Of a stretch of DNA of 64,000 nucleotides, positions 3,001 to 63,410 are shown piece after piece (within the stretch, counting starts at the first letter, position 1; every line of letters starts with the position of its first letter). The position numbers and the translations under genes were made by a program. Under the pieces are notes generated by a model. That model was given only the letters and a program-made list of their open reading frames with translations, searched no databases and was not told the origin of the DNA. The DNA comes from Nymphaea colorata (Eukaryota; Streptophyta; Magnoliopsida; Nymphaeales; Nymphaeaceae): the NCBI RefSeq assembly GCF_008831285.2, contig NC_045144.1:15177858-15241857 (forward strand). Reading direction: 5' to 3'.

Positions 3001-6000
3001 AGGCAGACATTGACCGACAGTGTGCTCGACACGTGTTATGCATGATTTCTCCAATTATTGCCTGACTCTAGATTGATTATTTTATTGGTTTTTACAGTGT
3101 TTGATATGAAATTTTATGTATCATCTGGGGATTTTGTTGTAAAATGTTGGGATTAAGCATATGTTGCAGTACAGTTGTACATTTTCACTTAAATACATTG
3201 CGGAAACATGCTTTGTTGGCTTCAAGAGCTTTTAAATAATTGCTTCTGTGAAATTTATACTTTTGCGAAACTGCAAGGATTCTGCACAGTCCAGAGTCTA
3301 GTGCAAAACCAATTTGATACGCCACATGAGAGGAAATTGCATTATATAATGTTGTTTGTTTGCACCACATGAAATGTGATATGCATGTTCTGAAAAATTG
3401 AAATATATTGATCCTGCTTTCCAGTTGCAGGGATTACATTGTATGTTTGCATTCGGATAGTGTTTATCTACTGGACTATGATTTTGTGTATCCTATCACC
3501 GATTAAGGAACAAAAATGAGATGTTTTCTGATGTCGCAAAGAGAACAACTGCCATGGAAACTGGAAATGATACTGTTTTGGCTTGTCAATGGTCCTTGCT
3601 TTTGAAAAGCCTTTCAGGAAGTGCTACTAGACTGAGATTTGTTATTTTGGGAGCTCTTAAGTACCTTGGATGAAGATTTGGGCTTGTACTGTTATTTTTT
3701 CTGTTAAAGGCACTTTTTAGAGAATGCAAAGACCTCTATTAAATGGTGCGAATGCGGGTGCTGGTGCGGATACGACAAGTTTTCAAAAAAATTTAGGTGC
3801 GGCTGCGGCAAGGATGTATATGTATGTGTTTGTATACATGTATATAAATAATTTGTTACATAATTATTTAACTGTTGGGTAGCCTTATTTATCTATATTT
3901 ACATATAAACTTTTTGTATTAGAGATAGTTTAGTTATGTGTACATTTTGTCAGTTTTGGCCCGGTTTGGCTGACTGAACCAGATGTTCTGTGTCAGAGAA
4001 GCTCCAGTACCAGCGCCAATGTCGATACAGGTGTGACACGGGTGCAGCAGCCATTTAGAAATACTCATGTGACATATGCAAAGACTGTTTCTGCTATGAC
4101 TTTCTTATATTGCTTCAAATACTGGTTTGCCTATGACTTTTTGATACTGCTTCAAATATTGGTTTTCGTAAAATTGATGGTCACCACATGTTTTAGAAAT
4201 GCATAGAAATTGTCTTGCAGAACTCTCTATGATTTCCACTTCAGGTTGTTTTTGGTAAGGAATTACATCTAGGGCAGCTGAGAAGGGTGTGCAATATGCC
4301 CTCTACAGTGCAACATGCTGATGTGAGATGCACTAATGTGCCTATTAATCAAGCCGCAAAAATACAAGTTGGTTTTACTATTTTAACTGCAATGTTGAAT
4401 CTCATATCCTCCATTCCTCTTATATAGCTTGGTAATGCAAGTCCCTATCCTAATGTGTACCAGTTACCTACTCATGGCTATATTGATGTTTTTTTCCAGA
4501 TGATGCTCAATCCTAGGTGCCGATGCAGATGGACATGGTAGATGGATGGCAGTACTCTCTTTCCCTACGACTGGGGGATGGTGTTTAGTGTTTTGTTTGA
4601 GTCTTGGCTCGTAACATAATGTTCCTAAATATGTTTCTGATTGATGTAGTACAGGGGATAAGATGTTAGGTTTTGAGGTTATGTTGTTAATATCATGGTA
4701 ACAACTTTTTTTTTTGAAAAAAAACGTGAAAACAATGCAATAAATAAATCAGCCGCTTAAAACTTTAAACAAACGCCGTTTATTTGAAAAAAAAAACGTT
4801 TAAAAACAACGTGAAAAAGCACACTTTTTCCTATTTTTTCTTTTCATTCATTTTTTTTACCTTTTTAATGCCAAACTGCTTGTTTTTATTTTTAATTTTA
4901 TTTGTTGTAAATCTACTTACTTTTTTGATATTTGTGGTACTAATTTCTCACTTACTGTATTTTCCCCTTATTTTAGTTTTTTTTTTGTAATTTAAAAAAT
5001 TACCATAGGTTTCCTTTCTTTAAGCTTGTGTATTATACCAGAAAAAGCCTTGCCATTTAAGCGAGAACTGTTTTTGTGACTATGGTTAATATCAATGGGT
5101 TTGAAAATCTCTTGCCTCTGTTTCTGTTAGTTCTCTATGAATGACCCCTTGCATGAGCAATCCTATTGAGAAGAAAAGAAATTTTTTTGCTTGGGTTTTA
5201 ATAATGTTGTAAACTGCAGGGTCTCACATATCTGGAAGCATGAATGCACACAAAGATAATTACTAAAATCATGTAACTTTTCATTTTCAAGTTGTATGTA
5301 TGTGTCTTGGGCCTCTTGGCTGTTAGTGCAAAACCCCAACTCTCAAGTGTGTGGAATAGAACTCAACAATAGTCCTAATTGAAGATCTTGACAAATCCTG
5401 AGCAGCATCTATACCCATGTCCTGTACCACTAACTGTCTTAGTTGTTAACTTTTTTGCATATTAAGTGAAACTAGCTACAAGGAATGTCAAGATACAATA
5501 TACTGTCAATCATATTAGCTTTGGACAGCTTACTTACTAGTTGGTATCGGAGCTAAGTTCAATACTCATACTAGAGGTCCAATAATTGAGGGAACATCTT
5601 CCTTCAAGGATGTTAGGCTTTAATGGTTAACCCCTCAAGTGTATGGAATAGAACACGAAAGCAGCCCTTTAGATTGAAGATCTTAAGAAATATCGAAGGG
5701 ATTATATATGTATCTTCATACTACCAGTTGCCCCAATTTGTAGGCCTCCTGGGTTTGAAACAAAATAAGCCATGTGAGGGGTTATAAAAAGCACTTGGAT
5801 CAGTTTCGGGCCAAGTTGATATTCCTAGTTGATGTCCAACTTACAGGGGATAAATGATATATGGGAACATTGGATAATATATAGAGTCCATGTATATTTT
5901 CTCTTGTTATATTCTCATTTCTCTTCAATAGTGTAGACTGGTTTTCAACTTTTCTGGTGAAAAAAGTCTAGAGTTCCCTTCATCATGTTCAGACAAGAGG

Positions 6001-7002
6001 AAAGGAGATCTTTCAGCACCTTTCTGGGAGGTACGATTCTAGCAATACTTCCAACAGTTCTTTAATTCAAATTACAAAGTTAGCGGTGTCATGGAGTGAA
6101 CTATACAAGTTCAACTTCGTTCCTCAAATCATAAGACAAAAGCATATGATCTAGTTGCATTTACTTTTCTCCTCACTTCATCATTATGTCTTCATTTTTA
6201 GAAAAATAAAGTAAGCATCCTCAGAACCAGAAGGATGCATTCATAGGTGAGCAATTGTAAGAGTATGTACTCAACTTTTCCTGATATATAATTTAAATTA
6301 TAGAAGCTTAAAACATAATGTTCATTTATCATGGGAAAAGCTGACAGTGACTAATAAAAAAAAACTAGAATATTCCATTGCTGACAACAGCAAAATAAAG
6401 TGAATTCATCATCAAGACCTACCTTGATCTGTAGTGGTAAACTTCCCACGTTTTGAAGCAATTTCTGCTCGGTGTTCAGTGGCCATTTTCAACAGAGTTT
6501 CCTACAATACCATGTCGACATATCATGTTTTCACCATGCAATCGCACCAGGCAATAATTGTATGCACTAAACAAGACACAGGATGCCATGAACGTAGAAC
6601 ATAGGACGGCCAGAAAAAGTCACAAAGAGAAGGAACATTACCTTCAAAGCATTTGAATCATGTCTCTGAGATAGGACATCTCTGCGATCATCAATTGGTA
6701 ACGCCGAATCCTTTGCAGCTCGGCTGTTGCAACCACAAGCCACAATGTATATATTACCAATTTTATTGATGGAAATCTAAGGATGAATTAATTGGAAAGA
6801 AAACAAGAAAGCGAAGCGAACCTCTGTCCTTGAATTACTTGCAACGTCGCCATCTCCTGGTGATCCAGAATGATAACATAATGTCCAGTCAATAATCAAA
6901 AAATAGAATGAGATGGGGCATTTCTAAAAGACATACTTGTTCACGCAGCACAGCATCTTGTGCAGCAGCCTCAATATCACGCTCAGCTTCTCCCTGAAAC
7001 AT
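1..7002 (-). CDS. PQBP1: PQBP1-like protein with two WW domains (partial gene, 9 exons seen, runs off left edge)
   Basis: Exons were deduced by reading the minus strand and joining GT-AG sites in phase: 6937-7002, 6822-6856, 6642-6723, 6423-6501, 2143-2232, 1914-2074, 1719-1775, 226-376 and 1-156 (continuing left). The N-terminal part is a charged helix (AQDAVLREQ, then RAAKDSALPIDDRRDVLSQ), followed by a G/Y-rich stretch (NIDIGNGYGVPGG), the segment ELPEYLKQKLKARGIL, WW domain 1 (LPAGWVEATDPSG...YYYNEHTGKSQWERP) and WW domain 2 (LPPDWEEALDSSTG...YYYNKRTNVSLWEPP). This order fits plant homologues of polyglutamine-binding protein 1, a nuclear WW protein linked in animals to U5 snRNP, splicing and transcription; the plant role is inferred. 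The donor after LPAGW is GTTCGT, chosen because it restores the WW frame. WW2 lacks the first Trp spacing typical of strong proline binders. The start ATG at 7002 is in frame, but an extra upstream exon cannot be excluded. The C-terminus lies outside the window. Confidence 0.82.
377..1718 (-). other. PQBP1 intron (1.3 kb)
   Basis: AT-rich intron separating the two halves of WW domain 1, after Trp of LPAGW. I see no coding block or transposon end in it. Short open frames here (802-1080, 1212-1403) are not in phase with the gene and look random. Confidence 0.65.
2609..3063. repeat. 34-bp direct repeats flanking a gene-like block
   Basis: Positions 2609-2642 and 3030-3063 match at 32 of 34 bases (CACGTGTTATGCATGATTTC...). 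The 387 bases between them differ in composition from the surrounding intron: GC-richer, with a 120-codon open frame on the minus strand (2681-3043) and a second minus frame rich in Pro and Gln (for example QQLLPPSMGPLHFVPP and GAVEHWVGPPKPHQNTYL) broken by two stops. It looks like a piece of exon placed into the intron by a duplication or repair event. I do not recognise the source gene. Confidence 0.5.
3743..4062. mobile_element. small GGTGCG-end element or remnant (family tentative)
   Basis: Starts with repeated GGTGCGAATGCGGGTGCTGG, then a run AAAAAAATTTAGGTGCGG, and ends in a region rich in the complement (GATACAGGTGTGACACGGGT). The head is clearly related to 50,410-50,470 (AAAAAAATTAGGTGCGGCGG) and more weakly to 30,520-30,600. 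This pattern suggests a dispersed non-autonomous DNA element. I could not define clean inverted repeats or a target duplication. Confidence 0.35.
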
Positions 7003-7500
7003 CTTGCAGTTGCCCAAGTACACTCTTGCCAAGTTGTAAAGCCCCAGAATCTTCAGGTGATACTTGTTCTATTGTTTACCTGTTTCAGGCTTTCCAATCC
7101 AACCCTACGAATAAAATCATACTTCAATGACTTCCGTTCAACTGCAAACCGCAATTTTGGGATTCTGTTCTAGGTAAAAGACACTTTGTCAATTCCATTG
7201 AGACACTTAAATTTCATTAGGACTTCAAGAAACTGCTATAAGAGCGTCTTCGCATACTCCAATGGGGGAAAATATCCTTTGATCTTCACACATGTCAACC
7301 ATTGCCCGTTGAGGGGGGAGAGATAGAAGAACAAGAAGAAGAAGAAGAATCATCTCACCTGGGCAGCGTGCTCAAATCTCACTGTCCTACCCTGCTCTTC
7401 CCTCACTCAACTCGTTTTCCTCCGTCTCCCTCAACCCTCTCTCTTTACTCGTTCACGCGCAGACGGAGACAGCCTTAGGTTCGGCGAGGTATCGGGATTA
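7003..7500 (-). promoter_or_regulatory. Probable PQBP1 5' UTR and promoter region
   Basis: This lies directly upstream of the first recognised PQBP1 exon and is retained in the duplicate (about 55,121-55,570). It contains a purine tract of GAAGAA repeats (about 7330-7350) and CT-rich blocks. A possible non-coding or short coding exon (about 7085-7110 on the minus strand, AG...CTGAAACAG then GTAAAC) could splice in frame to the next exon, so the true start may be further upstream. No clear TATA box was found. Confidence 0.4.
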
Positions 7501-7850
7501 TGGGGAAATTAACCTCATACTTCTACTTTTTCGGGTCAGACCTTGCTTCCGGACAACTACCCAGAAAAATAAAATACTATATTGCAATAACTGGTGAATA
7601 GATAAGCTTTTTAATTTTTTAAAGTTATAAAATCTTTTGAAATTATAAGTTTAGAACAAAAAATAGTACATTTCTTTTTTGAGGACACATGCTAATAATT
7701 TTAGAAAATGAACAATCCTTTGTAGTTTTTTCATTGAAATTCATAATTCTTTTTTCTGAAGATTATCAAGAAAACCATCCTTTGGTCTACTCAACAACTA
7801 TTTGCTTTGTGAGTGAATGCTTTGTTTATTTAATTGCGTGAGGACAAAGC

Positions 7851-9044: not shown

Positions 9045-10576
<1,532 letters not shown>

Positions 10577-12839: not shown

Positions 12840-13901
12840 ATGCCAGAAACACTTGGCTTCCTAACAATTGAGCCAGAAGACTACCATATGTTCTGGTTGT
12901 TCATGGAGCTATTCATGAGGGAGCAAGAAGAACAAAAGACCCTAATGGTTACTTCAAAACCAGAAACTGAAAAGCCGGTCAAGCAAAAGAGAAACAAGAA
13001 ATACAACAAATCCTCTCTTACAGATCGAGATGAAATTCATATAGATTCAGGCTCAGCAACTAGTGAGGAGAAAAAACCTGAATTGCTTCCTCTCAAGAAA
13101 AAAAGGACAACAAATAAAAGCAAGAAAGGAAAATAAATCATAGAAAAAAGCAGATCACCTTGCCCTCTCACAAGCGAAAGTTTAAGAGAGAAGCCAAAAA
13201 GAAAGAGAAAGACTGCCAAGAAAGGCAAAAAGACAAGGAAGTACATCTCAAGCAATAGCTCAGATAGCGAGAGATATAAAGAGAAAACAAAAGAGATCAA
13301 TGGCAAGAAGAAAAAAATAAAGCCAGAATTAGTCGAATCAAGTGAGGATGAAAGTCCGACTAAGTGCAAGTTTCATGAAATAGAGAAAAGAATGAGCAAC
13401 CTCGAACTTTAGGGAAAAGAAAAACACTCATACTCATGCAAGGATTACTACCTCGATATTGAAGGAGACGAAGAAGTGAAGGGTTTGTCTAAAAAGTTCG
13501 TCAAATATGATGGAACCACCTGCCCACATCTTTCAACGTTCCTCAATGATTGCTACAAGATTTGGGCAAATAACATAGCTTTGTTTCGCTACTTTCCAAG
13601 AAGTCTTGAAGGCATTGCTGTGCAGTGGTATAAAGAAAATGTCAACCCAGTTGAACTAAAGGAATTTGATAGATTGGTTAACATGTATGTCAAGAGATTT
13701 GAACAGAATGTTCCCATGGCTCTAACCCTCAGTACCATTTACGGTTTCTATAAAAAATATGGGGAAATGGCTCGAGAATTCATCCAAAAATGGAGAATTC
13801 AATGCAACAAGATGAAGGAGTCCATTTTTGAAACGCAGGCTTTGTCACTCATCAGGAAAAATCTCACCCAACCCTTGAAAAGTCTCATCCACAATGCCTA
13901 A
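12840..13901 (+). pseudogene. Tat gag (capsid) ORF with internal stops
   Basis: One frame runs from 12,840 to 13,901 with stops at 13,134 and about 13,410. The first part is very Lys-rich (KKKRTTNKSKKGK). The second (13,476-13,901) is a typical retrotransposon gag: FVKYDGTTCPHLSTFLNDCY, FPRSLEGIAVQWY, LVNMYVKRFEQN and EMAREFIQKWR. It forms the virus-like particle shell. A frame change after 13,901 leads into the nucleocapsid part. Confidence 0.82.
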
Positions 13902-15972: not shown

Positions 15973-16862
15973 TTGACAGTAGATGATAAGAAAAAATTGA
16001 TGGACTTTCTTATAAGTCACCAAGAAGTTTTCGTATGGACCTATGAAGATTTGCCAGGTATAGACCCCCAGTTGGTTGAACATCGTTTGCTCCTAAGTCC
16101 TAATTGCAAGCTAGTTAAGCAAAAGTTGCGCAAGCTTGATCCTCGACTAGAAGGGCCCATACAAGAAGGATTAGAAGACCTGCTAAAGGCAAAATTCATC
16201 TAGGCCATCGATTACCCTGAATGGTTAGCTAATATCGTGGTGGTCCCTAAAAAAAATGACAAAGTAAGGTTGTGCATCGACTTTCGAAACCTAAACAAAC
16301 CACACCGAAAGAGGATTATCCACTTCCAAACATTCATTTATTGGTAGACAGTACTGTAGGTCATGCCATGTTTTCTGTTATAGATGGATATTTAGGTAAT
16401 AACCAAATCAAATTATCAGTCAAGGATCAACCAAAGACCGCTTTTACCACCCCTTGGAGTACTTTCTGTTACACGATGATGCCATTTGGGTTAAAGAATA
16501 CTGGAGTGACTTATCAAAGAGCCATGGCCGCTATCTTCCATGATCAGATGCACAAAATCATGGATGCATATATTGATGACACATTAATTAAATCCAAGAT
16601 AAGAGAAGATCACATTGAAACCCTCGTCCAGGTGTTTGAGAGACTCTTACTGTACAAGCTTCATTTGAATCCTCAAAAATATGTGTTTGGGGTTAAATTG
16701 GGTAAACTTTTGGGTCTCATAGTTAGTAAGAGGGGGATCGAGATGGATCTTACCAAAGCTAAAGCAGTCATTGATATGCCACCAGATAACAATATCATGG
16801 AACTGCAAAGTCTGCAAGGATTCATCCGGTCCATCAGATGATTTATTTTCAATCTAGTCATA
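15973..16862 (+). pseudogene. Tat reverse transcriptase
   Basis: Reads FVWTYEDLPGIDPQLVEHRL, then after an in-frame TAG at 16,201 AIDYPEWLANIVVVPKKN and LCIDFRNLNK, then after a one-base frameshift EDYPLPNIHLLVD, FTTPWSTFCYTMMPFGLKN and the catalytic box YIDD (16,569-16,580), ending LQGFIRSIR. Two of the metal-binding Asp are kept in YIDD; the frame is broken at least twice. Confidence 0.9.
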
Positions 16863-20581: not shown

Positions 20582-21713
20582 TATATTTCTCTATTTCTTT
20601 TACTCTAAAATCTCTCTTTCTCTTTGAATTGGTATCCTCTTTTTATAAACTTTCATATATGTGTATGTGTGATAGTATATACACATATATGTGCATTTCT
20701 CTCTCTCTCTCCCTTTTAAGAACTTCTTTTTCCTCTCTATTTAAGTTAATACTTTATTTTCAAAAGCTTTCACATACATACGTGTATATATATGTATACA
20801 TATGCATATATACATCTATGTATATACATATAAATACATATAAAGATACGTATCTCCCTCTCTTTTAAAATCTTTCATTTAGTGATATCTAAAATTTCTC
20901 TCTCTCTCTTTCTTTCTGTGGGAGTATTTCATCTTTTTCATTCTTTTGGATATTTTTTTTCAAACATCTAAGGTTTTAATTTCCTACTTGTAGATTCACC
21001 AGGACCAAAAATTAAGTAATGTCCCAATATTGAAATCATGTTTGATGGTCTACAACCCCTTCCATTTTCATAGCAATATTTATGACAATATTATGAATAA
21101 AAATGAAAAACTTAGATGTATGTGATAGTAGAAATGCTTTTAAATGAATGTTATGATAAGAATGGATTATTCCATTCTAATCATATAGGACCAATGCATT
21201 CATGCATCCACACTCACTTAACATCACTTATGACCACAAACACATCTTCAAAAGAACTTAAGCAACATGAGATGGAGGTCCAACTAGGTTGCAACTGAAT
21301 TAGAGCAAAACCTCAAACCTATTTAAAGTCTTAAGAGAAGACTAAATCCACTTCAAAAGTGATTTCTCAAACTTTCCAAATGATATTTGTAATGATTTCT
21401 CAATTTAAGATTTTTCTCAAATCAGAATGTTTTACACTCTCAAGTGATTCTTCAAGAACTTTTTCAAAAGTTTGAAACATCAAATATTCAACATTTTCTC
21501 AAACACAACACCACTTTTAGAATGAAAAAAATGGTAATGCTAAAATGAAATACATTAAGAATAAGTATAGCCCTTAGATTGATTACCCCCGGTAAAGGCA
21601 CCAAAAATGGACAATCCTCATACCGACAGGCGTGTCCCTTTCTCTCTCATTTAAAATAAAACTTCATTTTTCTAGAGCATTCCAAAAACAAAAAACTTTT
21701 GAGGATGCAAACA
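19545..21713 (+). repeat. Right (3') LTR of the Tat element
   Basis: Starts TGTTATCACCCC right after the PPT and ends GGATGCAAACA. It matches the 3 kb LTR at 38,301-41,315 (reversed) at both ends but lacks about 1 kb in the middle, so it is internally deleted (junction near 20,093-20,125). Confidence 0.82.
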
Positions 21714-22620
21714 AACTCAAACAATCTTTTCAAAAACCTTTTATAAAACCATTTTCAAAGTTGAGTCCTTGAACCGTGAATAAGAAACCGTAAGGAGCAC
21801 TGGTTTGCAATATACAAAAAATTCCAATGGAATCAACGGATCGATACCTAGAAGCTAATATTGATCTTGGCAATCAAACATTTGTGAATGTTTAGCATCA
21901 GATGTCATGGGGAAGAAGCCTTTCATAACCAAAAGGGCCTTGGTAAGATGAAGAAAAATGCATAAAACAAAATGAGTTGAATGATGAGTTGGGGTGAGTA
22001 TAACTGTTCCTCAAGTTCAAAGCTCTGTAATAGCAGGTGAGCATATGACATATACTTACACCGTGAAACTAAAAGTAATCCATGAACAATTTGCTTATAT
22101 ATGACCTTCTAAAACATTTTAAACTCAAGTAAGTAAGTTCAATATGTATTTGACACTTGATACCCTAAGGCCAGTTGGTCTAGAAGTTACCTATAAAAAA
22201 CTCGCTACAATGTTTCAGAAGAAAGTTCGATAGGCATGACATTCCATAAAACAAAACTACAGAAACCCATTAAAGCGGTTAAATTCCGTAATAGCCCTTG
22301 GGGTGGTGAGGAATTTTCCCTAGAGGTGAAGGGGGCTCAAAAGGATGAAACAAATTTCAAGAAAAAACCGGAAAGGCAATAAAGGCAAAAGCAAACATTT
22401 GTTAAAGGACAGAAGGCATGAAGGGACAACTCATCTAAAGCGTCATGTGGAAAAACTCTACACAATCGTAGGATTTCATGATCAATATGAATTTCTCTAC
22501 AGTATATCTTATGAACTTGAGGAAGAAATGTTATATTCAAGCCTTTGCCTTCGGTTGTCATTTTTTGCAAGGTTAATAGGATTGAAGCCCAAGGCTTGCT
22601 CAGCAACGAAGAGGGGTACT
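21714..22620 (+). other. 3' internal remnant of a second Tat-like element
   Basis: No protein domain recognised. The stretch ends with ACGAAGAGGGG (about 22,606-22,616), a PPT almost identical in form to that of the neighbouring element, directly followed by an LTR start. It is therefore read as leader sequence of an older element whose 5' part is gone. Confidence 0.5.
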
Positions 22621-27835: not shown

Positions 27836-28792
27836 TGCTAGTCGATAGATGTCAGATTAATAAAAAAAAAATTCTCAGCCCTTGATCTTAGATCAGCAGT
27901 TGACAGAAAAATAAGGAATAGAACGTATGAACTAATACCGATGAAAATCACCCATCACTTTTTTCTATTTTTTTTCTCAACTGCTAATACGGAGAAGATC
28001 CAAAGCTGAGATTGATATTTCTATATATATATATGTATATATATATATACAACATCTGCATCAAATTCAAAAGAAAATGTGAAGATGACATTAAAAAAAA
28101 CAAGCAAACCAAAAGAGGAAGAAAATATTTTGTGCATTTTTTCACGGCTTTGCATTTTTTAGTTGTGGGATTTTTATTTAACATTTTAGTTTTAGTTTCT
28201 GATCTTTTTTAAAATTTGCACAGATTTCCAAGAAAAACACTTTGGCATATTATACTCATGAAGAACTTTGCCATTTAAAACTCATAAACTATGAGTATGA
28301 GAATGATATTATAGTATGGCGTATGTTGTGACATGCAGGTTCTTACAGAATGCACAGTTTTTGGCGAACAAATGCCCGAAGCTGCAGATTCCGGCCACAT
28401 TTGGCACAACAGCACTGGACAAAGATGCCAAATACTCTGTCCTGTATTTCTTCAAATTTCAAGATCTGCAAACCCCAACGGAAACCAAACCGGCAAAGGA
28501 GGCTTCTCTCTCAGACAATTGTGAACCCCTACCAAAAGGCATGAAAGTGACGGTCTCTCTCTCACAAGAAGATGGGGAGATCATTTGCAGCGGCCAAGCG
28601 TATCTCGCCCCAGACAGCCTTGACCTGATAAAACAGGACGGAGAAGAATGGCTGGCACTTGAGGTGGGCAGGTTTCAGTTCTCTAACATTTGTGGCGATA
28701 TCACTGCTACTCTGCAGAATGCCGTTGTTGGTCCATGGAAGATATCCCTCGTGTTTGCTGGGGTGGAGATCCGTGGTGTCTCCAGATCTTAA
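27443..28792 (+). CDS. PP2: Phloem protein 2 (PP2)-like lectin, copy 1, two exons
   Basis: Exon 1 is 27,443-27,525 (MIHSFVQSPKSVTLDSN...) and exon 2 is 28,339-28,792; the join CG|G gives Arg and keeps frame, for a protein of 178 residues. Exon 2 holds the PP2 domain: KLQIPATFGTTALDKDAKYS, VLYFFKFQD, then near the C-terminus EEWLALEVGRFQ and ISLVFAGVEIRGVS, matching the W-L-E-x-G and GI/VEIRP end of phloem lectins related to Nictaba. Such proteins bind chitin-like or N-glycan sugars and occur in phloem or the cytosol and nucleus; no signal peptide is seen. An insertion of about 20 residues (LQTPTETKPAKEASLSDNCE) sets it apart from the 46 kb copy. Apparently intact. The N-terminal start is chosen because all copies share M-x-x-S-F/S-V-x-S-x-K-S there. 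Confidence 0.78.
27767..27832. repeat. (TA)n microsatellite in PP2 copy 1 intron
   Basis: About 66 bases of TA following GTATGTATGTGTA. Confidence 0.9.
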
Positions 28793-31604: not shown

Positions 31605-32463
31605 GTTTTCCAGTCCTTCGTCCTATCTTTTAAGTCTATTTGCGTTTGCTGGGCAGACAACTCTAACTACTGGAAGGTGTCTCCTATGCAGAACTCACGG
31701 TCTCTTTTTCTCTCGTTTCAAGGGGTGTAGCATAGCTAGTTAAATAGGATGTATCGAACTGAAAGGTGTCTCTTGTTCGATTCCCATGAAAACTGGATTT
31801 TACTATAGCTCTCTCATGTCTCTTATTTGAGACCCATGGGGCAATATTTGTCTCCATTGTAAAAAAAACATCAAAGTCGACACATATGAAATGGACCACT
31901 AACTGTGACACATATATGGTCTCATTTCAACCTAAAATGGAACCAAAATTCTATTAATATCATGATTGATGTTAATGGTATGTGGGTTTAGCATAAATGA
32001 TTACCAAATCTTCTAAACCCAAAGGGCCAAAAGATACATGCTTATCCATGATAATTTCGTCTCGTTGACAATATGTATCACCCACGTTGTGGCAGAGCTC
32101 TTGGAGGTCTGCTGGCTGCAGATCCGAGACACATTTGATACAGCAGCAATCGACAAAGATACCACATGGTCACCCGTGTGTCCTCTAAAACACAATGATT
32201 CAGCAACAGGTCTGCACACACCTGCGGAGGTTTCTGTCTCACAGCAAGATGGGACGACCATATGCAGCCGGAAGATGCAACTAAACCCCGGCAGCGCCGA
32301 CCTGATACAACAGGAAGGCGAGGAATGGCTGGCGCTTGAGGTGGGGAGGTTTCAGCCGGCCGGCGTTAGTCGCGAGATCACTTTTAATCTGCTGGACGGC
32401 ACCACTCACTGCAAGACTGGACTCGTGTTTGCTGGGGTGGAGATTCGTGCTGTCTCCACTTAA
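31605..32463 (+). pseudogene. PP2-like copy 2, start codon and splice acceptor lost
   Basis: Exon 1 (31,605-31,699) reads FQSFVLSFKSICVCWADNSN, but the ATG of the other copies is GTT here. Exon 2 (about 32,080-32,463) reads ELLEVCWLQIRDTFDTAAID ... EEWLALEVGRFQPAGV ... TGLVFAGVEIRAVST, ending at TAA. The acceptor used by the other copies (GCAG|G) reads CCAC|G, and the stretch that should read YSLLYFF is altered (WSPVCPL). The exon 2 frame itself is open, so an alternative transcript is possible, but by sequence this is probably a decaying gene. It lies 3 kb downstream of copy 1 in the same direction. Confidence 0.65.
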
Positions 32464-37962: not shown

Positions 37963-40900
37963 TGTAGGGAATACTTGAGCCCCCAATATTACTTAAGCTC
38001 AAACTCCAATAATTTATTCATAGAAAATCTTGCAAAGTCTCGATGTCCAAAATAATTCCCAATAATAAACTTGACCAAGTGTACTTAATAAAACTTAACA
38101 ACCAAACCAATGAAGTTCACAAAATGAACTTAACCGAGCAACAACCTAAAATATGCACCAACCACACTTCAAATAATTCTATTGTTTGTCAAAACGAAAC
38201 ATACAAAAGTGAAGTACAAAAAATCAACTCAACAAGCTCACATAGTAAGCTAACATCCAAGTACCCAACATCCTTGCACTTAAGCACACACTTGAAACTC
38301 TATTCGCATCCCCAAAATTTTTTGTTTTTGAAGTGCTCCAGACAAATGAGATTTGTTTTGAAAATAAGAGAGAAAGGGACTCGCCCGTCGGTACGAGGAT
38401 CGACCGTTCCCAGCGCCTTTACCGGGGGTAATCAATCCAAAGGTTATGTCTATTATTGATGCATTTCATTTTGACTTAAACATCTTTTTTATTTTATATG
38501 TGGTGTAGAAAAATATTGAAAGTTTGATGTTTCAAACTTTTGAAAAGGTTCTTGATAAATTACTTGAGAATGTGAAATATTTTGAGAAAAACTAGAATTG
38601 AGAAATCTTTGTAAATATCATTTGAAAAGCTTGGGAAATCATTTTGAAGTCACTTTAGTGCTCTCTTAAGACTTAAGTAGGTTTGACATTTTGCTCTAGT
38701 TCAGTTACTACCTACTTAGAGTTCCATCTCATCTTGCTTAAATTCTTTTGGAGAGGTGCTTGTAGTCATAAGTGATATTAAATGAGTGTGAATGCATGAA
38801 TGCATTGATCCTATATAATTGGAAAGGAAAATCATTCATTCATGTCATAACATTCATCTAGAAACATTCCTACCACAACATACATCTAAGATTTTTTTTT
38901 TTGATAACTATCATAAATAAGAAGAAAAAGTTTTTGAAAATGGGTTGGAGTTGTAAACCATCAAACATGAATCCAATATTGAGTCATTACTTGATTTTTG
39001 GTATTAGTGAAGTTGGTAAACAAAGATCATGAGAAGAAAATGTTAAAAGGAATGGAGAAGTTGAAATACTCTCTTCAAAAGAAAGAGAGAGAGAAAGAGA
39101 TAGAGAAAGATGTACATATACGTGTATATACCATCACATATGTACATATATGAAAGTTTGTGAAAATGATATTAATTTGAATAAAAAGAGAGATTTTAGA
39201 GGAAAAGATAAATATGCATACATTCATATATATATACATATGTTTATGTATAAGAAAATTTGTAAGGGAAGATATTTATCTTGAAAAGAGAAATAAAAGA
39301 TTCTAGAAAGAGAAAATAGAACACATGTATATATGTATTCATGTGTATATGAAAATTTGTAAAATAGAATGTGGAAACATAAAGAGAGAAGGATAAAGGG
39401 AATCATCATGTGCACATATACATATATAACATGTATATGCATATGTGTCTTCATGAGATTCGAAATCAAGAAATGGCTTAAAATAATCGACTTCAAGTTT
39501 GATATAGGCCGGAAGAGAGCTTTGACTCATGTAAGAGTCTAAGCTAAGTCTCCCAGGCAGCATATAAGAGGGTATTTGCTTTCAAAAATCTTTTGTAAAA
39601 TATGATTTATATATAAACATAAAATGTTATTATTAGGTTTGTTAGAAGGGATATGTTTCTTCCACCGTTGGGTATGGAAGAAAATCAAGCAACATAACGA
39701 GCCACTTGTTAGGGTTCCTAATTGGATGATTAAGAAGAAAACTAAACATAATGACATGAAGATGCATTTTTAATATGTACAAATTTGTGAGAGTTCTCCC
39801 CGGGTTGGACAAGTCCAACCTTATAAATTGACATAGAATAAAGAGAAAATCTCGAACCATACTCTCATTCTCACCGTGCATTCACATATAAATGAAAAAT
39901 CAAACACCTATGCATGGATAATATCAAAGCAATATTTAAGAAAAGAGAGAGAGCATGATTCAATCATAAAATGAAATATCATATCATCTTCTCATGCTTG
40001 TGGTGCACTCGAGCATAGCCTCTTGACTCTAAAATAGAGATTTGAGAGCTATCTCATATAGCCATGGGGAGATGAAGAGGAGAGAAAATAAAGGAACCAA
40101 AACAAGGCTACATTCAAGAAAAGATAGAACATGATGCAATCATAAAATTAAATATCATCTCCTCTTCTCATGCTCCCGGTGCACTCGAGCATAGTTTCTT
40201 GACTTTAAAATAGAGATTGAGAGCTATCTCATATGGCCATGGGGAGATGAAGAGGAGAGAAAAAACAAAGGAAAGAATGGAGATGAATGTTGATTACATA
40301 CCTCTAATGAGAATGGTTTGAGGAAAAAATTATCACCCTTGCTTAGACTCACCTTGAATAGAGCTCCAAGGTAATGAAGAAGATGCCTCCAAGAGATCTT
40401 CATCCTCCCTTGAAGAGTTATAGCTTGATCCAAGTTGGAGAAGAAGAAGATGAATGAGAAGGAAATGGAGGAGAATCCAAGTCCTCTAGTGAGAATGCAC
40501 TAGGGCTTCTCCAAGGGCTAGCTTCTTGCCCAAGAGGGGGATAATGGAGTTTTTTATGGAGAGTTTTGGAGCCAAAACTCAAAAATCAATTTTTATTTGA
40601 ATTTCACAATATTTTCATGTGAATTTCAAATAATTTTGCATTATTTTCATTTTTTTTAAAATAAATAGGTTTGAAATGAGTATAATTGGCCATTAGGCTT
40701 GTAAATCCATTTTTGAGGTTTAGGCAGGGCTAATGGCCACTTAAAACGCTCAAAATCACCCTCTAACAGTCGATTTTGAAAAAAAATGAGGTTTGCACTC
40801 GACAGCGCATGCCAATATGCCCTTGAGGGCTTGCACCTGCGCGTGGCACGCACAGTCGTACATTGCGAGGACACGATCGCGTGACGCAATGCACGTGTGA

Positions 40901-55120: not shown

Positions 55121-55898
55121 CTTGCAGTTGCCCAAATACACTCCTGCCAAGTTGTAAAGCCCCAGAATCTTCAGGTGATACTTGTTCTATTGTCTACCTG
55201 TTTCAGGCTTTCCAATCCAACCCTACCAATAAAATCATACTTCAATGACTTCCGTTCAACTGCAAACCAGAATTTTGGGATTCTGTTCTAGGAAAAAGAT
55301 ACTTCGTCAATTCCATTGTGACGCTTAAATTTCATTAGGACTTCAAGCAACTGCTGTAAGAGCGTCTTTGCATAATCCACTGGGGAAAAATATCCTTTGA
55401 TCTTCACACATGTGAACCATTGCCCGTTGAGGGGGAGAGAGAGAAGAAGAAGAAGAAGAATCATCATCTCACCCTCACTGTCCCTTACTCGTTCTCGTCC
55501 CTTACTAGTTCCCGGGGCAGACGGAGACCGCCTTAGGTTCGGCGAGGTATCGGGATTATGGGGAAATTAACTCTACTTTTTCGGGTCAGGGTCAGACCTT
55601 GCTTCCGGACAACTAACCAGAAGAATAAAATACTATATTGCAATATGTGGTGAATATTTAAGCTTTTTAATTTTTTAAATAAATTCTTTTGCAATTCTAA
55701 GTTTAGAAAAAAAAATAGTACATTCTTTTTGAGGCTACTTACTAATAATTTTAGAAACTAACAATCCATTAGGGCCCGTTTGATGGGCTGGTGAAATAAC
55801 TTGAGGAGAGGTAAATCTGTACGGGCGGGTGAATTCACCCGCCTCATTACAAACTCATCAAACGAGGTGAATTTTCACCCGTTTGATCCAAAAGGGAG

Positions 55899-55969
55899 CG
55901 GGTGAAATTTCACCCGCTCGAAAGTCCGAGCTCGGAGCTTGGACTTTCGGGCGGGTGAAATTTCACCCG
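55899..55969. repeat. Long inverted repeat (hairpin) in element A
   Basis: Left arm CGGGTGAAATTTCACCCG plus CTCGAAAGTCC and right arm GGACTTTCGGG plus CGGGTGAAATTTCACCCG pair over 29 bases with about one mismatch around a 13-base loop. Each arm itself contains a perfect 18-base palindrome. Confidence 0.85.
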
Positions 55970-56344
55970 CTCGAGTTCATGTTTCGAGCGCTGTATCACC
56001 CTTCTCCGCAGCTCCTGCTCCCTCCTGCCTTCTCACCGTCTTACCACAGCACCACATTAGAACGAGCTCGCCTCTCCGTTGCGTCGTCGTCTCTCCGCTG
56101 CACCGTCGCCTCTCTCCTCAGCTGGTATGCTTTCTCCTGATGCCTTCCCTTTCTCTCTTGCCCTAAGTTCTTCTAGATTTGGGCGTTTCATTTTCATTTG
56201 CTGCCTTGTCTCTCTGTCCCTCTTTGCCTTGTCTCTGCATCCCTCTTTGCCCATTCCCTGATTTCTTTTTTTTTTTACCATGGAACCGTGAAGAATTCCA
56301 CCGCCAGTTGCTCCTTACTCCTCCTCTCTCGCTCTCTGTCTTTT

Positions 56345-56950
56345 TTTACCATGGAGCACGATGATCAGGGGGTTTGTTTCCAGTGGACAACCCGTGATGA
56401 CACTCTCTCTTTATTCCAGAATGCTTTGTGATGGCATGTTGCCTGCCCGTTTCTCTTCAAGGCTTGTGGATCTCTAGCTAGGAATGGTCTGGTGCTAGGG
56501 AAATCACTCCATTGTCATGTTTTGGAACTTGGGTATGCATTGGATCTGTATGTTCTGACTGGGACCATGCACAAGTATGGGCAGTTAGGTTTTCTAGGGG
56601 AAGCAACGAAATTGTTCGATAATATGCCGTAGAGAGATGTGGCTTTTTGGACTAGCCTGATCACCTGCTACGCTGCTAATGATTGTTGGGAAGAGGGGTT
56701 ATTGGCGTTCAACTTTTTGAGGGATGATTGTATGAAGTCAAATTCAGCGACATTGGTTTGCGTCATGGGCTGTTGTGCTCAGCTGGGTGCGTTGGACCAG
56801 GCACGATGTTTGCACTCGGTTTTGGAGAAATTGAGCATCAAATTTGATGTCTTTGTTGGCAATTCTCTTGTTGATTTGTATGCGAAATGTGGGAGGATAG
56901 ACTATGCTCGTCAAGCCTTTGATGAAATGCCCAAGCGAGACTCATTCTGA
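56345..56950 (+). pseudogene. Captured pentatricopeptide-repeat (PPR) gene fragment
   Basis: One frame reads FKACGSLARNGLVLGKSLHC, HVLELGYALDLYVLTGTM, KYGQLGFLGEATKLFDNMP, a TAG at 56,630, then RDVAFWTSLITCYAANDCWE, FDVFVGNSLVDLYAKCGRID and YARQAFDEMPKRDSF to TGA at 56,948. This is the PLS-type plant organellar RNA-binding PPR pattern (GxxLHxHVxxxG, VxNSLVDxYAKCG, FDEMPKRD). Family members are several hundred residues long; here only about four to five repeats survive. PPR genes of this type often lack introns, as here. Confidence 0.85.
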
Positions 56951-56977
56951 GCCGGATGCAGTCACTTTTTTGGCAAT

Positions 56978-57090
56978 CCTTGGCATCTGTCAAGTTGATT
57001 GAAGCAATGAGATCTACAGCAAGTTTCCTGCAATCCTTGGCATCTGTCAAGTTGATTGAAGCAATGAGATCTACAGCAAGTTTCCTTGAT
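56978..57090 (+). repeat. 54-bp tandem duplication in element A
   Basis: CAATCCTTGGCATCTGTCAA to AGCAAGTTTCCT is repeated twice back to back, just downstream of the PPR fragment. Confidence 0.9.
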
Positions 57091-57977
57091 GCAGTTGACG
57101 AACAAGCTCCATCGCTACATATATGTGAAATTTTGTAGTTCAGTGATGCCGGTGGAAGTGGTTTCTAGGTGAAAGGCTATATAGATTGCTAAAATCTGAT
57201 TCACAATGTAAAAATTGCTTCTCTTCTGAAGCTGTTCTTATATCTGTAATGATGTAATGAGCCTTCAAGGTTGTGAACTCATTTAGCTTGTTAGATTCTG
57301 CAAAACTAATCAGCTGGTTTAGTTTAACTTGTCTTACGAACCCTGTTTGGCTCAAGAAGGGAGACATAAAGATTATTTTAAATTGATTTAATGAGAGAAA
57401 ATAGATCCTGGGATGAACATACATGTCAAGCAACTCCTGATAACCCATGTTGAATTGGAGCCAGGAATTCGGAAGTAGTTGCATTTGGGATAATCTAATT
57501 ATGTATTATGTAATACCCTGTGTGGTCAATTGCCTACATGGCTTAAGGTCAATCCTAAGCATGGCCAATGTGATCTAATCAAAGTTGGATAGTAGCCAAC
57601 CAAGATCTAGTAGTAATGGTCATTGAAGATTTCAAATGAAAATTTGATAGAATCTCATCTACATGTTCTTCTTATGCAATTATAAGCCATAGGAACAGAG
57701 CGCAGCCTATAAATAGAAATAAGGATTTTCTACGAATTTAACTCTAAAATTTACATTTAACTAGAGAAAACTACAATAGCTTTCACTGTACGTCAAAATC
57801 TTGCAATATTATTCATGTGCATCAAACATGGTTAAATTTACCACGGTAAATTCTTCCTGTGCATCAAACAGGGCCTCAGATTGGAAGATGGATAAATTTC
57901 ATCCTGTAAATTTTTTCAGAAAAATTTACCATGGTAAATTTACCACGTTAAATTTCACCCGCCCATCAAACGGGCCC
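57091..57977. other. Element A right half
   Basis: No gene recognised in 57,140-57,780. From 57,830 to the end the [TG]CATCAAAC motif occurs three times (57,832; 57,861; 57,964) together with TTTACCATGGTAAATT palindromes, the same architecture as the left subterminal region. Confidence 0.5.
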
Positions 57978-58099
57978 TTAGGGCCCGTTTGACGGGCAGG
58001 AAAAATCCTGTAGCAATAGAAAAAAAATTCGAATTTTTAAAAAATTTCTGCTTTATCAAACGCGGAGTTTTTTTTGTTACCGTTTCCACCAAGAGAGGT

Positions 58100-58680
58100 G
58101 GAAACATATTTCCAGTTTTTTTTTTTTGCCCGTTAGGGCGTGCTGCATCGCAAGCTCGCAAGCCTCTGCCGTTGCTGCCTCCCCTGGTCGTCTCCCTCGC
58201 AGCTCGTCGTCCCTCTCGGCCTCTCACTCTCCTGCTCTCCTCGTCGCCTCTTGCTTCTGCTTCGATTGCTATCCCTCTTCCATCTCTTGGGTTTGGGGAT
58301 CTTTCTAAAAGCTTCTCCTGTTTTACTTCCGTTGGAAGGAGGGACACAACTCGTTGCGTGGACGAGGCAAAATCAACTCTATGGGTTTTCTAATTCTGAA
58401 AGGAAAGAGATTCGATTTGGAGTTGTTCACTGGCGGGCTTTGATAAGGGATTTCGCGGCCGGAGTTTCTGTAAGAAATTCTTGTGTTCTTTTGAGTGGAG
58501 AACAAGGGTTTGATCTCTTGCTGGTTTTGATGGTATTTTGAGGGAGGAAGTTGTTGAAAGGAAGTAAAAATTAGTCTTCCCGTGTGGTTTTTGGGCCTAA
58601 TTCTAAGAGATCCGAAGAAGAACTAGGGTTTTGTTTCTGTGGTTGTTTAATCTCCCCATTTTAGTCGGGGGTTGAGGCGG
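58100..58680 (+). other. Captured GC-rich, 5' UTR-like DNA in element B
   Basis: CT/CTC-rich leader-like sequence (58,140-58,290) leading into G/T-rich intron-like DNA and then the VOZ coding part. It may be the 5' UTR and first intron of the VOZ donor gene or of another gene. Open frames here (57,989-58,541) have no known motif. Confidence 0.4.
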
Positions 58681-58689
58681 AAAAGCAAC

Positions 58690-59120
58690 GAGGGCTGATA
58701 AGAGTGTAAACACTTGCTTCAAGGAGAACTCAGACGATTTTCTGGAGGGTGTCTTCACTAACATGCAAAGTGCCAGGAAGGAGAGCCGTACGAGTGATGT
58801 GGCCCTTCTGGAAGAGCAGGATCTGCTGATGCTGCGGGAGTGGAAGGCTGAACTGAACGAGGTCTCACCGGCGAACTCCTTGCTGGTAAAGCTCGAAGAT
58901 TCAGGGGATTTGTCTCTTTCGGCTTTTGTTATTCTTTTGATTCAGTTCCTGAGCTAAAATTTTCGTTCTTTTCATCTGTTTCCTTTCAATTACGATTCAG
59001 GAAGCAAGTAGGGGTTCATCAGCTCTCTCCTCTGATATCCGTCGGCTGTTGCAGCTATGTGAAGAGGATGACGATGCCACTAGCAAGTTAGCCCCTTCTC
59101 CAGTAAGCCCCAAAATTGAG
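58690..59120 (+). pseudogene. Captured VOZ transcription factor fragment, two exons with intron
   Basis: Exon 1 (about 58,690-58,885) reads CFKENSDDFLEGVFTNMQSA, RKESRTSDVALLEEQ, LMLREWKAELNEVSPANSLL; exon 2 (59,001-59,120) reads SSDIRRLLQLCEEDDDATSK. This is the N-terminal region of VOZ (vascular plant one-zinc-finger) proteins, which regulate flowering and stress genes together with phytochrome B. The intron between them has GT-AG ends and both exons end in phase 0, with no stop. The zinc-binding and DNA-binding half of VOZ is absent, so this is a capture, not a gene. Confidence 0.85.
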
Positions 59121-59694
59121 GTGATCTCTTTACTTGGTGGTTCGGTTCTTTGTTATGTGCGTCTTTTAGAACCACATAGTGAGACAAAATCACCACTATG
59201 TGTTTATTATTGGATCATGCAGCTTTTTATTTCACCTGATGATAATTCTGGTGAGTATGTAGGAAATTAGGAATTGATATTTTTGGTTTCGATTAAAATT
59301 TATTCAAATTGCAATCAAGTCGGTTGTTGTTGCAAGTTAGTTTCATTTTATCCTTTGTTTCTAACTAGGCGACTCCATTATATGAGGGCTTTGGATATGA
59401 GGCAAATTTTCAATTTGCATATTATGCTGGTGCCTATGATGACCATTATGGGACCTAAATAAGGTCTTCAACATTTTGTTTTTCTGGTGATTTTGAATGT
59501 TAAGCAGATTTTATGTTGTTTTTCTTACAAAATACAAAAAACAAATACATAAATTCTAAAATATAACAACAGAAAGAAGAAAATCTGTACTTAAAAATGT
59601 ACATAAATTCTAAAATATAACAACAAAAACAAATACTCTTATCTGCTTTTTATCTGTGACATATTATGCACTTTTCTGCATTTTTATGTTGCAG
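59121..59694 (+). other. Intron-like stretch between captured fragments
   Basis: AT-rich, with a 26-base AT-rich segment (ACATAAATTCTAAAATATAACA) occurring twice at about 59,545 and 59,600. The VOZ-to-nicastrin junction should lie here or just after. Confidence 0.45.
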
Positions 59695-60340
59695 GAATGA
59701 TGATGGCTTGTGGGTTTGGGCTTTGGAAGTTGATGGTTAGACAGTAGATCTGGTACTGCAACCAGGTGAAGAGGTCAGGTTGTCAGTGCTGTCATTAAAA
59801 TTCAACCACATTCATCTAGGTGAATGACAGAGGGTTCTCACCAGTAGGAAAATTTCCACAGGCTGAGTTTGCTTCATACAGGAATACCACATATAATTGG
59901 AACCCAGCTGTAAGTGTCGTATGATTCCTTGTGGTCTGTTGAATTCATAATGCATCTCCTATAGCTTAGTAGCTTTCCCTATCTTTTACATGTTAATTAA
60001 AGCATAATTTGCATTATCACTTGTATATATTCATCCCAGGGATCTGGTGTAATGTGGAGCCGCTATGATTTTCCTGTCTTCCTTCTCTCCCAAAATAGCA
60101 CCTTAAAACTTGAAGAGGTACTTTTTGAGTTAAATTATGTGTATAAAATCAAATTCCTATATTTATACTAGTAGGGAAGAGGACTGTCTCAAAAGCTTAC
60201 CTGATGTTAAGTGCACTTTTTTTTTCATGACCTATATATACTGGTGTTGGTTGAGCACCACTCCTCAGATTGTAGAAAGCACTGAGATACATACTGACAA
60301 ATTCCATGTAGATGTTGCAAAGTTTGATGTTGTAATGCAG
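59695..60340 (+). pseudogene. Captured nicastrin gene fragment (several exons, introns retained)
   Basis: Three exons join in phase 0: 59,820-59,909 (VNDRGFSPVGKFPQAEF ... YNWNPA), 60,040-60,117 (GSGVMWSRYDFPVFLLSQNS, TLKLEE) and 60,269-60,340 (FHVDVAKFDVVMQ), each with AG/GT borders. The set matches the luminal domain of plant nicastrin, the large glycoprotein subunit of gamma-secretase. A preceding exon-like piece (59,695-59,765, DDGLWVWALEVDG then a stop) is of unknown origin. Only a short middle section of nicastrin is present, without signal peptide or transmembrane helix. Identification rests on motif recall, so a database check is desirable. Confidence 0.66.
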
Positions 60341-60589
60341 GTACGCTTCTGTTGTTAATGTTGCAGGCTTTGAATTGTTGCACTTTCACACTCATGTTTA
60401 CAGTTCTGTACCTCTTCTAATTTCTAGTTTCATTGTTCTTGATTTAGACAACCAAAGTTGGGAATCATAATTGTAGGGACATTCACATTGTAGGATGATG
60501 CTTATCTTTTTTTGAATTCTATGAATTTTGCTGAGGAGATTACATTATTTTACCTTCTAGAAATTGGTCAATCTTTCTCTTCTAGCAAA

Positions 60590-60768
60590 TCTAGAAATAT
60601 ATTTCTGTACCATCAAACTCAGAAATATAGAATTGGAAATATATTTCTGAGTCATCACACACACACCCAAATTGGAATTGGAAATATTTTTCCTATTCCA
60701 TTTTTCCATTTCCTACATTTCCAGAAATATATTTTCAGAAATATATTTCCAGGCCATCAAACAGCCCC
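60590..60768. repeat. Subterminal palindromes of element B
   Basis: GGAAATATATTTCTG-type palindromes occur at least five times, interleaved with CCATCAAAC and GTCATCACAC motifs. Same layout as in element A but with a different palindrome sequence. Confidence 0.75.
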
Positions 60769-63410
60769 TTATAGTTTTTTTCATTAAAAGCCATAATTTC
60801 TCTTTTTATGAAGATTACAAGAAAACCACGATACTTCCTTTGGATCTACTCATCAACTACTGCTTTGTGAGTGTAGTGCTTTGTTGCGATGCATACAAAG
60901 CAACTCCCTACCCAACTTTAACAATCAATTTTCATCAATTTGTGGTTGTTTGCATCTCTAAAATTTTTTGGTATTTGGTTTTGAAGTGCTCCAGAAAAAT
61001 GAATTTTTGTTTTGAAATAAGAAAGAAAGAGACTCACCCGTCGGTACGAGGGTCGACCGTTCCCGACGCCTTTACCGGGTGTAATCAATCCAAGGGCTAT
61101 GTTTATTATTGATGCATTTCATTTTAACTTGAACATCTCTTTGATTCTATATGCGGTGAAGAAAAATATTGAAAGTTTGATGTTTCAAACTTTTGAACGA
61201 GTTTTTGAGAGTTGCTTGAGAATGTGAAATATTTTAAGAAAAACTAAAATCGAAAAATCCTTATGAATATCATTTGGAAAGCTTGAACATTTTGAAATCA
61301 CTTTCGTATTCTCATGAGACATTAAGTAGGTTTGAGATTTTGCTTTAATTCGGTTACCACCTAGTTAGACCTTCATCTCATCTTGCTTCATCCTATATGA
61401 TTGGAAGGATATAAAACATTTCTACCATAACATTCATCTAAAGTCATTCCTACCATAACATATATCTAAGATTTTTGTAATAAATATTTTTGATAAAGAG
61501 AGAATTTTTTTTTAAAATGGAATGAGGTTGTAGACCCTCAAACATGATTCCAATATTGGGTCATTACTTGATTTTGGTCTTAGTGAAGTCGGAAAATGAA
61601 AAATTAAAATCTTAAATGATAAGTGAAAATATTGAAAGAATGGAAAAAATGAAAAACTTGATCCCAAGAGAGATATAGAGAAAAAGAGAGAGAAAGAAAT
61701 CTTGAAAATCATAAAATTAAAGATTTAAAAGGAAGAGAGATACATATGCATATACATATTTATATATACATATGTATATATGTATATATGTATACATACG
61801 TATATGAAACCTTGTGAAAATAAAGCTTAAATCAAATAGAGAAGAGAATATCATTTTAGAAAGAGAGAGAGGTTTAAAATGGAATACACGTATATGAGAA
61901 TTTGTAAAAGGATATGTTAAATCATAAAGAGAGAATGACAAAGAAAGATATTCATGTGCACTCATACGTATATAACATGTATATACACATATGTCTTCAT
62001 GAATATTAAAATCAAGAAGTGAATTGAAAATAGCTAGGCCGGAGGGGAACTTGGGCTCATGCAAGAACCTAAATTAAGTCTCAAAGGCCATATTAGAAAG
62101 GTTTTTTTTTTAAAATGTTTTGAAAAATATGATTTATATATAAACATAGAATGTCATGATTTTGTTTAACACAAAGGATATATTTCTTCCACCGTTGGGT
62201 ATGAAAGAAAACAAATCATACAATAAGATGCTCATTAAGGTTTTTAATGAGATGATTAAAAGGAAACTAACGCGAAATGTGATGCAAATGCATATTAACA
62301 TGTACATATTCGTGAGGGTTTCTCCGGGTTAGACAAGTCCCAACCTCACAAATCAATATGAAGATAAAGAATCCCCAAACCACACTCTCATTCCCACCAT
62401 TCATTGGTATGTAAATTGAAGATTAAAATATCATGCATAGATAATATCAAAACAATATTTAAGAAAAGAAAGAGAGTATGATTCAACTATGGAATGGAAT
62501 CTCATTTTTTTATGTTTTCGATGCACTCGAGCATAGCCTCTTGACTCTAGAGAGTGAGAGCTATCTCCTATGGCCATGGGGAAATGAGGAAGAGAGAATA
62601 CAAGAAAAGCAAAATATAAATAAAAAATCAAGCAACTACGCATGGTTAATATATAAGCAGTATTCAAGTAAAGAAATAAAACATGATTCAACAATGAAAT
62701 GAAATATTATCTTATCTTCTCATATTATCCGTGCACTTGATTATAGCCTCTTGGCTCTAATATAGAGTTGAGAACTATCTCTTAGGGCCATGGGGAAATG
62801 AAAAAGAGAGAAAAATAGAAGGAAGGAAAAGAATGTATTCAAGAAATGAGATAACATGACTCAAGCATGGAAATGAAAGATCATCTCATCTTCTCATGCT
62901 CCCGGTGCACTTGAGGATAGCCTCTTGCTCTAAAATAGAGTTGAGAGCTATCTCTTTTGGCCATTGGGAGAGGAAGAAGAAAGGAAAGAAGATAAGAGAG
63001 AAACGAGAGGGATGATGATTACATACCTCTAAATGAGAAAATTACTTAAGAAAGATGAACACATTCACTTGAAGATCTCCTTGAGTGAAGCTCCAAGATA
63101 ATGCCTCTAAAAGGGTTGTAGCTTGCTCCAAGTTGGACAGAAATGGAAAGAGGAAGAGAGAGAGCTAAAGGAAAACCCCAAGTCTTCAAGTAAGAATACT
63201 CTAGGGTTTCTCCTAAGGGCCATTCTTGCTCAAGAGAAGGGAAGTGGGGAGTATTTATAGAAGATTTTAGAGCCAAAACCCTAAATTTGATTTTTTTTTT
63301 TTAATTTCACCCCATTTTCATCTGAATTTCTCATAATTTTGAAAAAGAAATGGTTTGAAAATTGGTATGATTGGCCATTAGGCTTATAAAAATATATATA
63401 TTTTTTAAAA

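Follow-up and report, generated by a model that had tools for sequence, protein, structure and literature searches.

How do transposable elements that encode no transposase come to hold pieces of several host genes, and how do two of them come to lie tip to tip? The question is raised by positions 55769-60771 of a 64,000-bp stretch of a water lily genome (407.8 Mb, 783 contigs), G000:C7:15177858-15241857, hereafter the window, where two elements, A and B, are arranged as TTA-A-TTA-B-TTA. They are very likely two different non-autonomous Pack-type PIF/Harbinger elements, inserted successively into the same TTA. As Pack-PIF elements they are of an already published kind, since gene capture by PIF elements was reported for grapevine Pifvine-3 (2008, PMC2528002) and in a survey of maize and rice (Gisby and Catoni 2022, PMC8903248); statements on these and other papers refer to the sections of them used here. 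An earlier reading of this DNA from its letters alone (the sequence-only reading) was right about the capture, but had called it much less described for PIF elements than the grapevine, maize and rice reports allow.

Terminal repeats and target site duplications

The two elements, their coordinates, their inverted ends and the three TTA triplets (Table 1) were as the sequence-only reading had given them. The terminal inverted repeats (TIRs) of A read GGGCCCGTTTGATGGGC(T/G)GGTGAAAT at both ends and are inverted almost perfectly (91% over 32 nt), while those of B, GGGCCCGTTTGACGGGC on the left and GGGGCTGTTTGATGGCC on the right, are less similar to each other than the ends of A. The 15-mer TTAGGGCCCGTTTGA occurred 175 times in the genome (84 + 91) against 0 for its reversed control, thus the TIR could not have arisen by chance. 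The end GGGCCCGTTTGA has the form G(N)5GTT, as PIF/Harbinger TIRs are worded in PMC2213677.

When the genome was searched for the same ends, as had been proposed, further copies with 3-bp target site duplications (TSDs) of their own were found. Flanking triplets were identical in 17 of the 18 elements with both flanks present (11 TTA, including A and B, 5 TAA and 1 TCA), after L036, L043, L054 and L055, each with one end in its stretch, were dropped. This is the 3-bp TTA/TAA duplication of PIF/Harbinger elements.

At the right ends of A type (window 57808-57977, L033, L050, L055, L056 and L057), a second TIR-like copy (GGCCCTGTTTGATG...) lies about 102 bp inside the outer one with no adjoining TTA, and the outer end of L051 and L052 is similar to this inner copy. 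In addition, palindromic subterminal repeats (GCGGGTGAAATTTCACCCGC; AAATTTACCACGGTAAATT) exist at window 55898-55974 and 57833-57955, and are possibly binding sites of the transposase or of ORF1, the first open reading frame (ORF).

Unoccupied target site

When the flanks of A+B were joined, they could be aligned to a paralogous site in the window (7568-7826), and the alignment ran straight over the insertion point. The flanks are part of a longer repeat, 88% identical over 1456 columns with the join spanned. Since this unoccupied paralogue aligns across the join, A and B both occupy one target point. The flank repeats recur in the window at 6384-7826, 10122-10562, 21260-21721 and 38303-38739.

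Host DNA captured by A and B

The pieces in A and B are not the only intact loci of their kind, because donors (L037, L038, L040, L041 and L042, on C1, C7, C8, C9 and C6) persist elsewhere, on other chromosomes and, for one piece, on C7. Internal DNA copied from persisting host genes is a mark of Pack-TYPE elements, and so is multiplication after capture, for which A has three relatives and B one. All five pieces run along the element in the direction of the donor gene, judged from donor ORF strands against match strands; for L038 the gene is the neighbouring mTERF.

The PPR fragment of A, which had already been recognized from the letters, comes from a gene (L037) whose open frame, 535 codons long, contains PPR, E and E+ motifs (PF13041, E 1.2e-43). 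Compared with this donor the piece has 13 gap columns, one stop codon and a break in the frame, so a coding function is unlikely, and the claim that the family shuffles exons is supported at the level of DNA only. The captured pieces in A and B are most likely decaying passengers. Two pieces had escaped the sequence-only reading, namely the DNA in A that comes from 3' of an mTERF gene and, in B, the Rpc25-like exon region.

The copies of A on C4 and C6 have the same donor order as A. In its relative on C9 (L035), the PPR piece has this deletion too (donor 3676 to 3764) and includes more of the donor, up to 3961 and then 4450-4512; no match to the mTERF region (L038) was found in this relative. 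As L035 has PPR without mTERF sequence, the PPR piece was taken up independently of the mTERF piece, and the latter would have entered within the A line, by addition or by exchange. Substitutions relative to the donor were 4.5-5.2% for PPR, more than the 2.4-3.5% among A and the C4 and C6 copies.

For B, VOZ and probable nicastrin fragments with introns had been proposed. The nicastrin part is supported by the donor L040 (Ncstrn_small, 5.7e-8). L041 and the pieces derived from it are only presumably VOZ; the match to NAM is sub-threshold (0.0091), and for VOZ no PDB match was obtained. Two loci on C1 and C2 (L043 and L044) are B-like elements or remnants with 2.2 kb in common, including the Rpc25-like region of which B has a piece. 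Both have B-like left ends, and L044 also a right end, therefore they were dropped as donors and L042 was taken as the nearest one. The copy of B on C6 (C6:11500483-11503024) is without B 1537-1785, and the gap cuts into the Rpc25-like piece; since the missing part interrupts this piece, the C6 copy is the deleted one. Substitutions relative to the nicastrin donor were 3.3-3.6%, again more than between B and its copy (1.4%).

Two more interiors of family members were probed, one of which looks like gene capture. L046 (1131-4195, on C10) is a further Pack-PIF element with two donors, both on C1. One donor is a Derlin gene (L058, DER1 E 1.1e-10), whose piece keeps the direction of the gene; the other is the region 3' of the pyruvate kinase gene at L059, whose piece does not. 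L050 was rejected as another pack element, its interior matching a multicopy mosaic instead of clean single-copy donors. The relatives of A and B, the two-donor L046 and the donors elsewhere, in which no TIR was found, agree with the proposal of a family with gene capture.

Table 1. Positions of the features described, given in the coordinates of the window
Feature	Position	Strand	Remarks
Paralogous unoccupied site	7568..7826	+	Joined A+B flanks align across at 84%; TTG replaces TTA
TTA, left copy of the target	55769..55771	.	
Element A, non-autonomous Pack-PIF, 2206 bp	55772..57977	+	TIRs, TSDs; copies on C4, C6 and C9
PPR gene fragment	56350..56983	+	Donor L037 (C1); one ~87-bp internal deletion; one stop codon and frame break
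57-bp tandem duplication in A	56973..57086	+	Single in the C4 and C6 copies
DNA captured from 3' of an mTERF gene	56980..57491	+	Donor L038 (C7); internal deletions
Right end of A, genome-wide repeat	57808..57977	+	Common to transposase-bearing L056 and L057; second TIR-like copy ends at 57875
TTA common to A and B	57978..57980	.	
Element B, non-autonomous Pack-PIF, 2788 bp	57981..60768	+	TIRs, TSDs; one copy on C6
VOZ-like pieces (presumed name) with introns and upstream DNA	58244..59600	+	Donor L041 (C9); donor gaps of ~94, 1242 and 617 bp between aligned pieces
Rpc25-like (RNA polymerase III subunit) exon region	59632..59828	+	Nearest donor L042 (C6); Pfam E 0.0007, under the curated cut-off
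Nicastrin exons and introns	59828..60472	+	Donor L040 (C8)
Right end of B	60587..60768	+	Common to other elements, including transposase-bearing L053
TTA, right copy of the target	60769..60771	.	

Other ORFs in the window include two for Phloem protein 2 (PP2) at 28316-28792 and 32038-32463, one for a reverse transcriptase (RVT_1) at 16272-16841 and a gag-like one at 13476-13901.

Transposase-bearing relatives

Neither A nor B contains a transposase between its TIRs, as expected of Pack-TYPE elements and as the sequence-only reading had stated: tblastn of eight PIF ORF pieces gave no match at E<=1. Matches to DDE_Tnp_4 are spread widely in the genome (best 150 of 307 candidates scored). Of 100 TIR sites listed among the 175, ten had such a match at most 6 kb away on the inner side and none had one on the outer side, where 0.22 would be expected for either side. 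For right ends of B type it was 3 of 33 against 0.15 expected, with B, its copy, L044 and one back-to-back duplicate dropped. Two opposed right ends of B type, about 14 bp apart, were observed at G000:C11:13578495-13578847.

The sequence-only reading had suggested a search for a PIF transposase with the same ends, and three such elements were identified. L053 (5157 bp) has ends of B type and TAA on both sides, and L056 (4342 bp) and L057 (3321 bp) have ends of A type. Scanned ORFs of L053 and L057 matched DDE_Tnp_4, and those of L053 and L056 matched Myb_DNA-bind_3 (Myb/SANT ORF1), with transposase sequence also present within L056. The ends of A are 82% (left) and 89% (right) identical to those of L057, and the ends of B 78% and 92% to those of L053. 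These same-end ORFs, together with the TTA/TAA duplications, upheld the assignment to PIF/Harbinger. A PIF transposase acting in trans with its Myb/SANT partner would very probably have moved A and B.

MULEs have other TIRs and 9-bp TSDs. Pack-MULEs resemble A and B in gene capture by a TIR element, but differ from them in that A and B have 3-bp TTA duplications and PIF relatives. Assignment to MULE, CACTA or hAT was ruled out by the 3-bp TSD, the TIR and the transposase relatives.

Junctions and the way of capture

Break or gap repair inside the element may have brought in the gene pieces as genomic DNA, in more than one step, through template switching or through joining at short microhomologies; this has about an even chance of being right. 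At eight scored junctions the donors overlapped by 2, 4, 2, 0, 2, 4, 2 and 0 bp, a mean of 2.0 against 0.74 by chance (P 0.004), with microhomology of 2-4 bp at 6 of the 8 joins and fillers of 7 and 2 bp at two. Left out of the count, for want of a clean donor on both sides, were the join of the VOZ and Rpc25-like pieces and those that link captured DNA with the ends of an element.

Another route is fusion, in which neighbouring insertions flanked a gene piece, lost their inner ends and moved by the outer ends as one element. This model was published for Pack-CACTA, with an extension to Pack-PIF (PMC8903248), and A and B, lying side by side in the same orientation, form a pair of this type. 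However, no close TIR core was found at the joins (best match 4 mismatches of 12, within 80 bp of 13 junctions), nor at up to 2 mismatches in the 5-10 kb stretches of seven donor loci; each element combines DNA of two or three chromosomes and shows internal deletions, and no A+B composite was among the 40 candidates scored for each element. With no TIR remnant at junctions or donors, repair by template switching or end joining is favoured, and fusion is rather unlikely. That A+B is a single composite moving as a unit could be suggested by the outer ends, which are also inverted (74% over 39 nt) and both flanked by TTA. It was rejected because A and B each have solitary copies with separate TSDs; the TTA between the two is intact and the same scoring gave no second A+B unit, so that this explanation is very improbable.

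Reverse transcription of spliced RNA would account for some donor stretches being absent, and the join at B 1848 is about 2 bp from a nicastrin intron/exon border. The nicastrin introns and the DNA upstream of the VOZ-like exons are nevertheless kept as in the donors, and since introns are kept this route is scarcely credible. Plants do have PPR, VOZ and nicastrin gene families, so the pieces could be thought to be ordinary local genes beside which TTA and inverted repeats fell by chance; against the TIR counts of 175 and 0, the donors elsewhere and the unoccupied site, this has next to no likelihood.

Several observations weigh against A and B being successive insertions of elements that grew by repair. 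Of the scored junctions, 6 of 8 are deletions inside a single donor that may have happened afterwards, and joins from donor to donor make up only 2 of 8 (PPR-mTERF with 4 bp, TTGG, and Rpc25-like-nicastrin with a 2-bp filler); one junction value (A 1177) was read by eye. Fusion followed by deletion of the internal TIRs is allowed by the data. One of the 10 inner-side DDE_Tnp_4 hits (C7:9632216, at the 966-bp L045) falls past the far end of the element. No transposition or excision was seen, and L053, L056 and L057 are putative sources of transposase. As for the duplications, L044 is the sole element of the 18 with unequal triplets, perhaps by a one-base shift, and L055, outside this count, is flanked by TTA on the left and TTC on the right. 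L051 and L052 have flank sequence in common, so they may be one duplicated insertion.

Stacking at a common TTA

Repair would explain the interior of A and B, and their contact at one TTA could come from target preference. The bases at -3, -2 and -1 before TTA were C in 21, 18 and 16 of 35 target sites (background 0.16-0.19), a count that is weakened by going by ends, so that the two sides of an insertion count twice, and by covering the ends of examined loci only. It retained 35 of 40 ends; three near-duplicates were dropped, and so were the two ends that face each other at the A|B site. The family terminus reads GGGCCC|TTA, that is, CCC before TTA, which matches the C-rich preference. PIF of maize prefers an extended palindrome around TTA.

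Abutting TIR-TTA-TIR junctions with up to 3 mismatches were found at five places in the genome. Recognisable ends are present on both sides in the window, in L060 (one side diverged) and in L061; L062 is a likely further case although its second side is weak, and for L063 ends on both sides were not demonstrated. Extrapolation from the window gives about 18.6 million TTA/TAA sites, on which a thousand randomly placed elements would form about 0.1 abutting pairs, by arithmetic with an assumed copy number. The second element may have landed at the TTA beside the first since the preference was met by the CCC end of the first, a step that could well go either way. A wider proposal, tentative and on balance improbable, is that the end imitates half of the preferred target of the family, so copies would stack tip to tip at a common TTA, while independently the mosaics would grow by repeated microhomology-guided repair.

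Comparison with known systems and implications

Zm-Pack-PIF elements (PMC8903248) are likewise non-autonomous PIF elements with mostly TTA/TAA TSDs, host gene fragments and neighbours in the same orientation. In the worked maize example, cluster 18, the inserts measure 58 and 163 bp and the elements 402-535 bp on average, and the interpretation was fusion of neighbours, whereas A and B have pieces of 0.2-1.4 kb with introns, two or three donors and no visible TIR remnants. The transduplications of Pifvine-3 (PMC2528002) are also host exon and intron sequence in PIF elements, sometimes common to several copies, but there the captured DNA is a long 5' region in elements that also contain ORF1 and transposase regions, unlike A and B, which have no transposase. 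In animal Pack-TIRs, for which gap filling/FoSTeST was described (PMC8277862), breakpoint microhomology has a median of 2 bp and template switching was invoked; these differ in being from animals and mostly single copy, and the words PIF and Harbinger are absent from the main text as used here. A 2026 review (PMC13317346) regards the uptake of unlinked fragments by TIR elements as still open and an undiscovered mechanism as conceivable.

A and B go beyond published Pack-PIF elements in having pieces from separate loci, apparently gained stepwise and joined without leftover TIRs, and in the match of the C-rich target preference by the terminus of the family itself, which may be a cause of the stacking. 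Ordered junctions were kept at base level in a relative with PPR alone, in a group with PPR and mTERF pieces and in an element with three donors, and the family makes fusion and repair-based capture testable against each other in one genome. In the part of the literature covered, no report of such elements from water lilies was found, and the water lily host would extend Pack-PIF to an early-diverging angiosperm lineage. If true, stacking together with stepwise growth of mosaics would give the family a self-feeding route to elements with multiple genes, unlike the published fusion-only model.

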